Shown here in pieces: positions 3,408 through 32,986 of a stretch of 32,986 nucleotides of DNA. The DNA lies in NCBI GenBank assembly GCA_018829985.1, contig JAHJSU010000047.1, positions 1 through 32,986 on the forward strand, read 5' to 3'. A program made the position numbers and the translations under genes. Origin of the DNA: Elusimicrobiota bacterium. Lineage in GTDB: Bacteria > Elusimicrobiota > Elusimicrobia > Elusimicrobiales > UBA9959. Numbering within the stretch: the first letter of the stretch is position 1; each line of letters begins with the position of its first letter. The notes beneath the pieces were generated by a model that had not been told where the DNA came from, did not search any database, and worked only from the letters and a program-made list of their open reading frames with translations.

Positions 3408-4547
3408 ATGCTTAACCCTTTCTATTACGGACAAGTAGCTATAGGCGCTGATTTTACCGACAGGACAACGGAGCTTAAGGAGCTTGTGGGCGAACTTGAC
3501 AGCGGCGCAAGGGTGTTTCTTATATCTCCAAGACGGTATGGCAAAACTTCGCTGGCGTTTAACGCGCTGGCCGCGCTTAAAGAGCGCGGCATTATAACCG
3601 CTTATATGGATATGTATGATGTTTCCACTGTTGAGCAGTTCGCGGCGCACTACGCCAGAGCCATCGCCAGGGCGGCGGAGACAAAAACCGAAAGCATCGT
3701 CGGTTTTATCAGGGAGGTTATCCCCTCGCTGCGGCCGAACATCACGATAAGCGCCGAAGGAGAAATATCGGTGGGCATAGAAGCGGCTCCTAAGAAGCCG
3801 GAGCTTTCCCTTCTTATCAAGGAGCTCCTGGAAATTCCGCAAAAAACCGCTGAGAGGAAAAAAAAGAAATTTGCCGTGTTCTTTGATGAATTTCAGGAAA
3901 TAAGGAACGTGGGAGGGGAAGCCCTTGAAAAGGCTATGAGATCCGTTTTCCAGCGCCAGAAAGACGTAGGCTACCTGTTTGCCGGCTCAAAGCAGCATAT
4001 CATGTCCGATATGGTCTTAAATAAAAACAAGCCTTTTTATAAAATGGGAAAAGTTCTTTTCCTGGGCAAAATCCCGTCGGGCGAACTCAGTTCTTTCATT
4101 TCCGGCAAGTTCGGGGCTTCGGGTAAAACCATGGACGCCGGAACAGAGGACGAGATAATAAAGGTTTCGCGGGCGATTCCGTATTATACGCTTCATTTAT
4201 GCCACGAAATCTGGAACGGCTGCGCGGACAAGAAAAGCGTGCCGCGCTCCGCCGTTGCCGAAGCTGTTGACAGGCTTGTGCAGGGGCTGTCTCCGATGTT
4301 TATTTCAATGTGGGATTCGCTGGCGCTTTCACAGCGGAAACTGCTGCAGGCGATGGCCGCGTCCGGCGCAACCGACTTGTTCTCAATGGGGTTTATCAAT
4401 TCCTACCGCCTGGGGTCGGCATCCTCCGTGCAGAAATCGGAGGCTCTTTTGACGGCTAAAGGCCTGCTTGAGAAGGAAGACGGTGTTATGATGTTTTCGG
4501 ATATCTGGTTCCGCGAGTGGATTAAAAAGAAGTATTTGGGAAGATAA
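3408..4547 (+). CDS. AAA family ATPase of the archaeal-type ATPase/STAND-like group
   Basis: Walker A-like SPRRYGKTSLAFNAL, Walker B-like FAVFFDEFQE, N-terminal DRTTELKEL. Confidence 0.85.
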   Translation: MLNPFYYGQVAIGADFTDRTTELKELVGELDSGARVFLISPRRYGKTSLAFNALAALKERGIITAYMDMYDVSTVEQFAAHYARAIARAAETKTESIVGFIREVIPSLRPNITISAEGEISVGIEAAPKKPELSLLIKELLEIPQKTAERKKKKFAVFFDEFQEIRNVGGEALEKAMRSVFQRQKDVGYLFAGSKQHIMSDMVLNKNKPFYKMGKVLFLGKIPSGELSSFISGKFGASGKTMDAGTEDEIIKVSRAIPYYTLHLCHEIWNGCADKKSVPRSAVAEAVDRLVQGLSPMFISMWDSLALSQRKLLQAMAASGATDLFSMGFINSYRLGSASSVQKSEALLTAKGLLEKEDGVMMFSDIWFREWIKKKYLGR

Positions 4548-4548
4548 T

Positions 4549-4661
4549 GTAACTATTCAGGTCTGTCGTCGTAGTGGCAGAGTTTACTCTGCCCAAAAAG
4601 GCAAAGCAAGCTTTGCTACTACAAAAAATACGTTAAAAATACGGAGAACCTGAGTAGTTAC
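4549..4661. mobile_element. MITE-like element A (113 bp), TIRs GTAACTATTCAGG/CCTGAGTAGTTAC, two internal perfect hairpins
   Basis: Exact 8-bp direct repeat AAGATAAT on both sides (4541-4548, 4662-4669); near-identical inverted copy at 12594-12710. Confidence 0.88.
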
Positions 4662-4782
4662 AAGATAATAAGGAACAATGGAAAATAGACAGTGCCCTAT
4701 TTTATTGACAAACAGTCAGGGTTGACGGGGATTTATTTTTTTGTTTCCAGGAGGGTTATGCGGGTTTCGTGGGCGGCGAGCT

Positions 4783-5894: not shown

Positions 5895-8800
5895 ATGAAA
5901 GCGAAAAAAAGCGACTTTTTACCAGGCCTCCTTGCTTCCTTGCTTCTTTCCCTCCCGCCTTTATTCGCCGCCGGGAGCAAGACCGCGGGCAATATTTCCA
6001 TTGTGGACGATATCATCGGCGCTCCGGCGGGTTCCGTGGACGCGACGGGCGGGATATATTCGGCACAGGGGTTTATCGGGGCGGTGGACAGCGGACAGCA
6101 TTCAAATTCCCCCGCGCTTATTGAAGCGGGATTTTATTCAATGCTCGTCTCTTCGCCTTCTTTCTTTGACTATAATTCGGCCTCCTCGGGCTCGGTGAAC
6201 ACCCAATGGGCGGCCGCCAATCCCGCGGGCACGCTTTACCAGTCGTTCACTTCTACGGCGAACATAGAGGCGTATTTCCAGCTTCTGGGAACCACGGAAT
6301 ATCAACAATTAGTCGGGGGACTCGCGCCGAACACCAGCTACTACAATTTTTTAATGGCGAATTACATGGAGAGCGACTACGCGCCGTATGTTTCGACCGT
6401 CGCCGTCACTTTAAGCGCGCCCCTGTCCGCCGGCGCTTTTGTGTTAAAGGACGTGGGTCCCGGCCCGGTGGAGCTGGCTTTCACGTCGGAAAACCCGGGG
6501 CCGTCCCGGCTGGCCGCATGGGCAGCGTCAGCGCAAAGCCTCCCCGCTCCAAGCTACGGGCTTGCCTCCTCCGTTTACGGCAGCTACATATATATAAGCG
6601 GGGGAAACGACGGCGTTAAATTCAGCAGCGCGGTATATTCGGCCAGCCTGAACCCGGACGGGAGCCTTGATTCCTGGGGCGCGGCCGGCTATATGCCGGC
6701 GGCAAGGTACGGCCACCGGATGTTCGCGGCCAAAGGGCGGCTTTATATCCTCGGCGGCTTTAACGCCGGAAGCGCGCAGAATACGGTATGGTCCGCACCC
6801 GTCTCTTCGTCGGGCGCGCTGGGCGCGTGGGCGCAGGAAACCAGCCTGCCGGTTACGCTTTACTTCCATGCCGCGGCCTATTACATGGACAATGTCTATG
6901 TGTCGGGCGGCTATTCCTCTTCCGTCAGCGCGGCGGTTTACAAGGCGGGCCTGGGCGAGGACGGGACTTTGGGCGCCTGGTCGCCGTCGGTAAATCCGAT
7001 GCCCGGGGTCAGATACGCCCATACCATGAACGAGTTTAACGGCATTCTGTATGCGGTCGGCGGTAATGACGGTTCGGGGCCCAAAAATAACGTATGGAGC
7101 GCCTTAATAAAGAGCGACGGCACGATAGACCCCTGGTCCGCGCAAGCGGCAATGCCTGCGGTAAGGTTCGCGCATAAGGCCGTGTTCATAGGCGATAAAC
7201 TGGTGGCGCTGGGCGGTGATAACGGGACCGGGCCTCAGAATATGGTATGGCAGGCCAGCGTTGGGGCGAACGGCGGCATTTACGCCTGGACCCCGGCCGC
7301 GCCGCTGCCGGAGCTGAGCCGGTTCCACGCCGCTGAGACGGTGGACGAAAAGATCTACATCCTGGGCGGCTATAACGGTTCCGCTGCCGTCGCAAATTTC
7401 TGCTCGGCGGCTTTTACAGGCACGCAGTACCAGGTGCAGGCTTCCACGGACGCCGGGTTCGCCTCGGTAAACGAGCAGTCCGCCTGGTCCTCCGATACTA
7501 AATGGAAATTCCGCGCGCTCGCGCCAAATACCGCTTATTATTTCAGGGCGAAGGCCAGGAACTGGTCCCTGACGGAAACGGCTTTTTCAGCGGCTATAGA
7601 CACCGTCACTTACGCCGTCCCGCCGGCCGCCGCGGCCTGGAGCGATGTTTACATCTCAAGCGGCACGGCCGACTGGCAGGCCGGGGAGAATTTGCCGGGA
7701 ACGCTTTACCAGTGCGACATTTCAAGCTATGCCGATTATACACCGGTAAGTTTTTCTTCCGCGACCTTAAACCTCTCAGCGGCTTGGAGCGGTCTTCTGC
7801 CGGGCACGACCTACTACGCGCGCGTGAAGGCCTTCAACTCCTGCGGCGTTCCCACCAGGTTTGCGGAACTGCCCTTGGCTAATACCCTTTTAGATCCGGC
7901 GCTGGACACGAGCAGCCCGACAATAACCGATAATCAGTCCGGCGACGACGTCTGGAGAAACGCCAATACCAGCGTCTACGACGTAGATTTTGCCGATACG
8001 GGCGGGGGGGAACTGCTTAATTTCCAGGTCCGGGCGGCCACGGCTCCCGGCGGAGCGGGCCTGGTCGCCGACTGGATAGATGTTTCCACCGCCCTGGCCG
8101 GGACGGCCTACTCGGACGACTGGGCCCTGCCGCAGAGCGTGTGGGACGCCCTGCAGGAAGGTCCCACTAACTTTATTTCCGTCAGGGTCTTCGACACGGT
8201 CGCCAATTCAAGCGAGGCTGTTGACGCTTTTTATGTCTTAAAGGACACCACTCTGCCTAATGTCGAGCTTGATTATACCGCGCCCGGCGACTGGGTATCC
8301 GAGGACCCGGGACCCGTTTCCACCGCCACGTTCAGCGACTATACCTCAAAGCTCGCGCAGGCGCGGTACAGCGTAAGCACCAATAAACTTTCAGGCAACG
8401 CGAACGTGATAGGCTGGACCGATATAGGCGACCCCGCCGCAAGCGCTGTGTATGCCACAACCTGGAGCTATAACTTCGGGCTGCTCGCCAACGGCGTCTC
8501 CAACTATTTCAGCCTGAAGGCCCGCGACGCGGCCGGCAACGAGAAGATACTGTACGACGCTTTTGTGATAAAGAAGAGCATGCTCGGCCCCGTGGTGATC
8601 ATCACCTCCCCGGCCGACGTTTACCTTTCCACCATTACGCTGATAGCCGGCAGCGCGATCGAGACGGCTTCGCATCCCGTAATAGGCACGGAGATATCCG
8701 TACTGGATGACGATGCAGCCCGGTACTGGAACGGCGCGGATTTTACGGCTCCGACAAGGGTGTGGCATGCGGCGTCGGGGACGCAAGCCTGGAGCCTTGC

Positions 8801-12593: not shown

Positions 12594-12710
12594 GTAACTA
12601 CTTTCTCAGGTTCTCCGTATTTTTCACGTATTTTTTGTAGTGGCAAAGCTTGCTTTGCCTTTTTGGGCAGAGTAAACTCTGCCACTACGACGACAGACCT
12701 GAGTAGTTAC
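12594..12710. mobile_element. MITE-like element B (117 bp), inverted copy of element A
   Basis: Reverse complement matches 4549-4661 with 3 substitutions and a 4-nt insertion; no clear target duplication. Confidence 0.85.
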
Positions 12711-18978: not shown

Positions 18979-19092
18979 GTAACTACGAGACAGCTAGGCA
19001 GCTAGACAGCTAGACAGCTAGACAGCTAGACAGCTAGACAGCCAGGCAGCTTGACAGCTTCTGATTCCAGCCGCCTCGCTGCCTGTAGTTAC
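18979..19092. mobile_element. MITE-like element F with GTAACTAC...GTAGTTAC ends and CTAGACAG tandem interior
   Basis: gtaactacgagacagctaggcagctagacagctagacag...ctgcctgtagttac. Confidence 0.6.
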
Positions 19093-19166
19093 TCTTTATC
19101 GCTGTAATCTCCAAATAGATTCACTTTGCGGCCTTTGCGTTTACGTTGCGTTCTTTGCGGTTAAAA

Positions 19167-19180
19167 GTAACTGTTCAGGT
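19167..19180. repeat. Solo GTAACTGTTCAGGT terminal repeat
   Basis: gtaactgttcaggt matches the TIR family. Confidence 0.45.
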
Positions 19181-19187
19181 CAAAATA

Positions 19188-19275
19188 TTATCCACAGATT
19201 GCGCAGATTCTACAGATTAACCAACCCTGAATTACCGGTTTTAAAATCCGCGTACATCTGCGAAATCTGCGGACT
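19188..19275. repeat. Imperfect intergenic inverted repeat (TTATCCACAGATT...AATCTGCGGA type)
   Basis: ttatccacagattgcgcagattctacagatta ... aaaatccgcgtacatctgcgaaatctgcgga. Confidence 0.6.
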
Positions 19276-19504
19276 CATAGCTTTTTCCCAGATGATACGG
19301 CTCTGTCTCCTGAAGCTGCCGGGTAGTCACTGTTATAATAATAAACCGCCCGTTCCAACAAATACAAAAACGCCGGAATGCGCCTGTGAAAATTTTGGGG
19401 AATTTTTCTCTTGACTTTGAAACGCCCTTTTAATAACATTCTCAGTGACCGGCAAAACGACTGCCGATGTTTTAAAAGCCGGGACTACCGATAGGAGGAA
19501 TCAG

Positions 19505-20907: not shown

Positions 20908-21061
20908 GAAACTACTCAGGTTTTTAGGCTGAAGGCAGTTAGACTATTAGGTAAGAAGCAAGAAAGTGATTGAGCAAGAGAGTGATTCTTCCTTGCTTAC
21001 TTACTTTCCTGCTTACTCACTGTCCCCTGACAGCCTACAGCCTGTTCACCCGGGCAGTTAT
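20908..21061. mobile_element. MITE-like element E (uninterrupted relative of the 28002-28269 element, inverted)
   Basis: Ends gaaactactcagg.../...cgggcagttat; reverse complement matches 28128-28269 with about 11 differences over ~137 positions. Confidence 0.75.
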
Positions 21062-22169: not shown

Positions 22170-22275
22170 ATAACTGCCCAGGTGGATAGGCTGTAGGCAG
22201 TTAGGCTGTAGGTAAGAAGCAGAGACACAGACTAACAGCCTGATAGCCTACAGCCTAAGCAGCCTAAGTAGTTGC
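22170..22275. mobile_element. MITE-like element D
   Basis: ataactgcccaggtggataggctgtagg ... cctacagcctaagcagcctaagtagttgc. Confidence 0.6.
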
Positions 22276-28001: not shown

Positions 28002-28269
28002 GTAACTGCTTAGGTGGATAGGGTAACAGTTTAGCCTTCTTAAAAAAATATGTAGTGGCAAAGCTTGCTTTGCCTATTGCTCGCAGAGCAAGCTCTGCAA
28101 CCACCTTCGGTTTGACTAAACTGTTACTGGATAGGCTATAGGCTGTCAGGGGACAGTGATTAAGCGGGAAAGTAAGTAAGCAAGGAAGAATCACTCTCTT
28201 GCTCAATCACTTTCCTGCTTCTTACCTGATAGACTAACAGCCTTCAGCCTAAACAACCTGGGCAGTTAC
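28002..28269. mobile_element. MITE-like element C (outer), interrupted by a nested element
   Basis: gtaactgcttagg ... acctgggcagttac ends; see nested element. Confidence 0.8.
28023..28127. mobile_element. Nested MITE-like element (105 bp), perfect 12-bp TIRs GTAACAGTTTAG/CTAAACTGTTAC
   Basis: Exact 8-bp duplication TGGATAGG at 28015-28022 and 28128-28135; internal hairpins ggcaaagc/gctttgcc and gcagagc/gctctgc. Confidence 0.92.
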
Positions 28270-32703: not shown

Positions 32704-32986
32704 ATGAAAACCAAATTAATCATATCGGCGGTTCTCACCGCCGCTGTTTTATTTTTAAATCCGATTTCCTTTGCTGCAAATAACAACTGTAGTGGCAGAG
32801 CTTGCTCTGCCTCCTCTCAAATAAAAACTGCCCAGGACAAAGCCGCCGGTGCCGGCAAGAAAAATTCCACAATAGAGAGTTCACAGAAAACGGGTTCCGT
32901 TCTTTTTGACGGCGTGGATCCCAATCTCCCGGCCAAAGACTTCGACCCGGATTCCTCCAACCCCGCCGCCCTGACCGGCGGCGGCC
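32704..32986 (+). CDS. Secreted protein, N-terminal part only (truncated by window end)
   Basis: MKTKLIISAVLTAAVLFLNPISFAANNNCSGRACSASSQIKTAQDKAAG... open to the end of the window. Confidence 0.75.
   Translation, partial: MKTKLIISAVLTAAVLFLNPISFAANNNCSGRACSASSQIKTAQDKAAGAGKKNSTIESSQKTGSVLFDGVDPNLPAKDFDPDSSNPAALTGGG
32789..32811. repeat. MITE-cargo palindrome GTAGTGGCAGAGCTTGCTCTGCC inside a coding sequence
   Basis: ggcagagc tt gctctgcc hairpin; same word as in elements A, B and the nested element. Confidence 0.85.

Follow-up and report, generated by a model that had tools for sequence, protein, structure and literature searches.

A 113-bp MITE family with probable ISBst12-group ends and a REP doublet interior in an Elusimicrobiota genome

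The 113-bp element and related elements in the window

The window analysed here is a whole 32,986-nt stretch of DNA from an Elusimicrobiota bacterium (contig JAHJSU010000047.1). It contains a 113-bp non-coding element that abuts the 3' end of an AAA-type ATPase ORF (Table 1). An earlier note, made from the letters alone, had described a GTAAC-ended element with an exact 8-bp target duplication that takes in the stop codon of the ATPase gene. Both statements are borne out, as AAGATAAT stands on both sides of the element at 4541-4669 and the TAA stop occupies 4545-4547, within the left copy. The 13-bp inverted ends are identical at 12 of 13 positions (one mismatch), and the right boundary reads CCTGAGTAGTTAC on the plus strand. 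The two hairpins of the earlier description are present, except that the second one in the window copy is GGCAAAGC-AA-GCTTTGCT and ends in GCT; the form ending in GCC is the consensus of the other 113-bp copies. On the minus strand the hairpin of the second unit is followed by CTTTTT, an arrangement that resembles a terminator. Folding of the strand gives -49.7 kcal/mol (z = -8.6), and no Rfam family matches within the window.

Table 1. Features of the window (positions are those of the whole stretch)
Feature	Position	Strand	Basis
AAA-type ATPase ORF (PF01637), reading frame intact despite insertion	3408..4547	+	
Left target-site duplication AAGATAAT, holding the TAA stop of the upstream ORF	4541..4548	.	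sequence, scan
113-bp MITE bearing IS66 (ISBst12-group) ends; a diverged member of the 113-bp family	4549..4661	+	sequence, genome comparison, scan
Left terminal inverted repeat GTAACTATTCAGG	4549..4561	+	scan
REP-like unit: GTAG and hairpin GGCAGAGT-TT-ACTCTGCC	4571..4593	+	hairpin/folding analysis
REP-like unit in inverted orientation (minus-strand GTAG), hairpin GCAAAGC-TT-GCTTTGC	4600..4622	-	
Right terminal inverted repeat, minus strand GTAACTACTCAGG	4649..4661	-	scan
Right target-site duplication AAGATAAT	4662..4669	.	sequence, scan
Second copy of the 113-bp family, opposite orientation, 4 extra bases in one end, no target duplication	12594..12710	-	
Decayed element, related ends, unrelated interior, no target duplication	19167..19330	+	
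Decayed element, related ends GAAACTACTCAGG / ATAACTGCCCGGG, no target duplication	20908..21061	+	
Decayed relative of 28002-28269 that lacks the nested insertion; empty site for comparison: GGTGGATAGGCTGTAGGC	22170..22275	+	
Older element with GTAACTRYYYAGG ends, host of nested 28023-28127	28002..28269	+	
Second MITE type, inserted into 28002-28269; ends GTAACAGTTTAGC/GTAACAGTTTAGT, REP-like hairpins, exact duplication TGGATAGG	28023..28127	+	

An unbiased scan of the window for any 8-bp direct repeat around inverted termini that agree at 11 or more of 13 positions, 60-300 bp apart, returned two matches, 4549-4661 and 28023-28127, against none in 100 order-1 simulations. The latter represents a second IS66-like MITE type (ends GTAACAGTTTAG), and its hairpins are related to those of the 113-bp element; similar ends were seen on a 1313-bp IS66-like element of a Nitrospirae MAG (L238:586-1898, GTAACAGTTTAGT). 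Near the right edge of the window (32789-32836), a lone REP-like hairpin lies close to a AAAACTGCCCAGG half-end, possibly a MITE remnant. A tandem 8-mer array (ACAGCTAG) was also observed at 18979-19093, between GTAACTAC...GTAGTTAC ends and with no target duplication.

Copies and target duplications across the genome

The genome assembly (3.53 Mb in 362 contigs, 96% complete) contains 278 GTAACTRYYYAGG ends, 131 forward and 147 reverse, whereas the reversed control pattern matched only once; 67 short elements with paired ends were counted. The 113-bp family accounts for at least 40 near-identical copies; at least 36 of these are identical over all 113 bases and match the consensus, from which the window copy differs. 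With a length of 113 bp (bacterial MITEs being taken here as shorter than 300-600 bp with no coding capacity), no coding sequence, terminal inverted repeats, a target duplication and many dispersed copies, the window element is a MITE. A further check suggested in the earlier note, whether other copies show duplications, gave a target duplication of at least 7 of 8 bases in 55 distinct elements among the loci examined in this genome, 47 of them exact, where about 0.9 matches on average are expected by chance (right flanks shuffled). A+T makes up 71% of the duplicated targets.

Elements with the same ends range from 87 to 247 bp and have unrelated interiors, and those of 104, 114, 125 and 173 bp, which lack REP units, behave identically to the 113-bp family. 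We searched for copies of the shell of the 113-bp element devoid of the REP pair and found none. The 247-bp locus is a 126-bp element into which a 113-bp element has inserted, and the uninserted locus has a single AAAAAAAT target. Similarly, 28023-28127 is nested in 28002-28269 between two copies of TGGATAGG and is missing from the related 22170-22275. These nested insertions indicate movement, and the 36 or more identical copies indicate a recent burst. Judged from these sequence comparisons, the 113-bp MITE family is real and recently active. Insertions avoid genes: only 15 of 43 lie in ORFs of at least 100 aa, whereas random placement within these loci hits such an ORF in 85% of cases. An ATPase ortholog for an empty-site synteny test of the window copy is absent from the sister species, which has a 49-aa fragment only.

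The 173-bp element with these ends occurs at many contig ends, and many contigs stop inside it, which explains part of the fragmentation of the assembly. The long repeat at contig ends was considered as an insertion sequence and rejected in favor of this 173-bp short element. In L031, a span of 1263 bp bounded by GTAAC ends was likewise rejected as a single element, as it consists of two short elements flanking a gene.

ISBst12-type transposases and the same ends in other genomes

No IS66 gene was detected in the genome itself, either with the PF03050 profile or with the TnpC of the sister species as query (the latter without a positive control), so we infer the mover from relatives. MITEs usually, though not necessarily, share their genome with an autonomous element whose ends match. 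Given an assembly of 362 contigs, the autonomous element was possibly lost in assembly; the TnpC gene may have been lost, may be missing from the assembly or may have been transiently supplied. IS66 genes occur in 12 of the 295 genomes of our phylum sample, including that of the sister species (G001), the only other member of the genus in the sample. This genome contains a 2436-bp element (L245:32-2467) with ends GTAACTACTCAGA / GTAACTGCCCAGG that encodes a DruA-like protein (PF14236, E=1.6e-34) and TnpC (PF03050, E=1e-47; NCBIfam transpos_IS66, E=3e-84); in a deleted copy (L263:1264-2465), both ends are exact. The first 17 bases of its MITEs, GTAACTGCCCAGGTCCC, are common to the right end of its insertion sequence, the copies of which are without an exact 8-bp duplication. 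The DruA-family ORF (L245:137-1006), which has a domain of the Druantia defence protein, lies upstream of TnpC within the element.

Exact ends also accompany TnpC outside the genus. An exact end lies just past the TnpC stop codon in a MITE-bearing Nitrospirae MAG (L221) and another near a TnpC fragment in Gallionella (L229). The IS66 element of a Leptolyngbya boryana plasmid has GTAACTACTCAGG at both ends and a perfect 8-bp duplication, ATCAGCGG. On annotated plasmids, the elements of Paraburkholderia (GTAACTATTCAGC), ISGst1 (GTAACTATTCAGC/GTAACTATTCACC) and Chlorohelix (GTAACAATTCAGC/GTAACAGTTCAGA) share GTAACTATTCA / GTAACARTTCAG ends with exact 8-bp duplications. ISDge4, a member of the ISBst12 group with ends GTGACTACTCAGCA / GTAACTGCTCAGCA and an 8-bp repeat, has been caught transposing (PMC12898284). 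The group as a whole (ISBst12, ISGst1, ISDge4) has the same terminal GTAACTRYTCAG[GC], 8-bp duplications and autonomous members with a single TnpC. In contrast, the 113-bp element is gene-less and has the terminal ~13 bp alone in common with them, and its closest autonomous relative, that of the sister species, has the DruA-like ORF in addition to TnpC. The DDE_Tnp_IS66 and zf-IS66 domains of TnpC lie between the ends in the relatives and not in the 113-bp element. No IS66 domain was detected in 11 of the 26 other MITE-bearing MAGs searched. Two further IS66 elements from the phylum, L244 and L249, also show GTAA ends with 8-bp duplications, although their end sequences are different.

The assignment to IS66 in the earlier note, which would have fallen had neither duplications at other copies nor an IS66-type element with these ends turned up, is thus supported on both counts: by the 47 exact duplications, and by TnpC genes with GTAACTRYYCAGG ends, seen in the sister species, in MITE-bearing genomes and on the named plasmids. 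As the ends belong to the ISBst12 group, the assignment can be narrowed to that group, in which TnpC occurs without TnpA and TnpB, rather than to classical three-gene IS66. The note had advised looking for IS66 TnpA/B/C with the same ends; TnpC was found in relatives, and no IS66 gene was detected in the genome itself. We consider it very probable that the 113-bp sequence is an ISBst12-group IS66 MITE, moved in trans by TnpC, with a REP doublet as its interior; to judge from ends, duplications and relatives, TnpC is also the most likely mover of the copies in this genome. An ISBst12-type TnpC, a DDE transposase supplied in trans, would recognise the terminal ~13 bp (GTAACTRYYCAGG), move the element and join it to 8-bp staggered, A+T-rich targets, leaving 8-bp duplications. 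The interior has no coding role and varies between families, and TnpC would once have been present in, or a visitor to, this lineage.

Could a DDE transposase outside IS66, whose ends came to look alike by convergence and which also makes 8-bp duplications, move the elements instead? Such duplications can also arise from other transposase families, and the lack of a detectable IS66 gene in the genome would fit. However, the thirteen specific terminal bases match ISBst12-group elements from several phyla and from the sister species, and we met no other transposase bearing these ends. We therefore regard this alternative as very unlikely. A further proposal is that the shell is kept for a host function, as a transcription terminator or RNA processing hairpin, and is not a simple parasite. 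The avoidance of genes and the terminator-like hairpin speak for it, but purifying selection on a parasite also yields gene avoidance, other shells have different interiors, and the identical copies point to a recent burst. This proposal appears improbable to us; as it concerns consequence and not mobility, it is compatible with movement by an ISBst12-type TnpC.

In a public genome collection, the paired-end pattern was found in at least 109 stretches from at least about 45 MAGs, as counted from record titles, and at least ten phyla; binning errors could misplace single loci, and several of the genomes hold many copies. Among the matches listed, the bacterial labels are Chloroflexota/Anaerolineae, Desulfobulbaceae and other Desulfobacterota, Nitrospirota, Nitrospinota, Thiotrichaceae, Gallionella, Nitrosovibrio, Mariprofundaceae, Chamaesiphon (Cyanobacteria), Bacteroidota, Deferribacteres, Firmicutes and Elusimicrobia, and the archaeal labels are ANME-1 and Methanocella. 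A relative in the same family (G019) carries the element. There is no conservation beyond position 13; agreement within positions 1-13 was imposed by the search itself and hence is not independent evidence. A duplication of at least 7 of 8 bases was found at that pairing in only 53 of 114 end-matched elements among the matches listed; a second, outer end on some of them accounts for part of the shortfall. Elements of 150-154 bp with three ends were observed in Desulfobulbaceae (L100, L108, L133, L136, L153, L170, L204 and others). Their inner end lies ~40 bp inside one outer end, and the duplication is at the outer pair, so that either of two ends is perhaps usable.

We tentatively propose that ISBst12-type ends act as an interchangeable shell. 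In many phyla, the ~13-bp termini would repeatedly gain new local interiors in the form of REP doublets, tandem repeats or palindromes and be amplified there by resident or visiting TnpC, with one recognition code common to unrelated MITE families from Elusimicrobiota to archaea; in the present genome, shells of different IS66-like end types would hold the same kind of REP doublet. If this is true, it suggests that ~13 bp of terminus are the sole part that such a transposon must keep across phyla. A concrete end sequence makes the poorly described IS66/ISBst12 MITEs recognisable in metagenome assemblies.

The element is of a known kind, an IS66/ISBst12-type MITE; less usual are its REP doublet cargo and how widely a single end sequence recurs with unrelated interiors. 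Bacterial MITEs are likewise short and non-coding, with terminal inverted repeats, target duplications, many copies and mostly intergenic positions, but here one end type recurs across phyla around many unrelated interiors. A 2024 review of prokaryotic MITEs makes no mention of IS66 (PMC10969869). BrickBuilt, a P. gingivalis MITE with a minisatellite, also combines terminal repeats matching an insertion sequence of the species with a repetitive interior and no transposase remnants (PMC4596501), although both the IS family and the interior differ.

The REP doublet interior

Both hairpins of the 113-bp element start with GTAG and face each other with GTAG outermost. They are thus inverted GTAG-tagged REP units enclosed as a doublet by an IS66 shell, so that REP doublets and DDE transposons are joined in one element. 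The head-to-head units would be of the kind recognised by Y1/RAYT transposases. The genome has eight Y1_Tnp genes, one of which scores against the RAYT model, below the cut-off. Among the loci examined in this genome, which are biased towards the first end type, inverted GTAG pairs lie next to GTAACTRYYYAGG ends in 44 of 50 cases and next to another IS66-like end, AATATTCGGTRAACCC, in 4 of 50. The latter end is similar to that of L244, an IS66 element of 2681 bp found in the phylum (GTAAACATTCGGTAAACCCC, duplication GTGAATTA). A third end type (GTAAATATTCGGTGAACCC) was observed around the same kind of REP pair in L035 (~8310-8490), where CCAGCCGC stands on both flanks, and in L043, L048 and L071.

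These features raise the alternative that a Y1/RAYT transposase spreads the copies through the REP doublet, as a REPIN, and that the GTAAC ends are incidental flanking sequence. The inverted hairpin pair and the Y1_Tnp genes are in its favor, as is a 24-bp 3' hairpin identical to one within a RAYT gene. GTAG-type REP dimers and REPINs have the same inverted, head-to-head hairpins with GTAG outermost (PMC3733652), but the boundaries of mobility here are IS66 ends, not REPs. The repeated unit is not the doublet itself; it ends at GTAAC with exact 8-bp duplications, and copies are identical up to the last base of the shell. To our knowledge, Y1 transposases do not make 8-bp duplications. Moreover, elements with the same ends and no REP units show the same behavior. 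We consider spread by a Y1/RAYT transposase exceedingly improbable, and read the 113-bp family as a REP doublet in an IS66 shell, amplified via the shell ends. REP dimers within longer palindromes were noted earlier, with no insertion sequence assigned in the excerpts consulted (PMC3733652).

Several Y1/RAYT genes of this bacterial family were seen to contain an in-frame inverted GTAG hairpin pair that flanks the HUH motif: L307/L345 (G000:C55), L313 (G000:C348), L340 (G025), and L346 and L350 (G004). Intragenic REPs as such are already described (PMC3733652). The stems vary between genes yet remain self-complementary. The position of a REP pair around the RAYT active site suggests that REP doublets could arise through internal deletion of such genes. 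The 3' unit of G000:C348 is tandemly expanded in frame, and 24 bp of that of G000:C55 are identical to the second hairpin of the consensus MITE.
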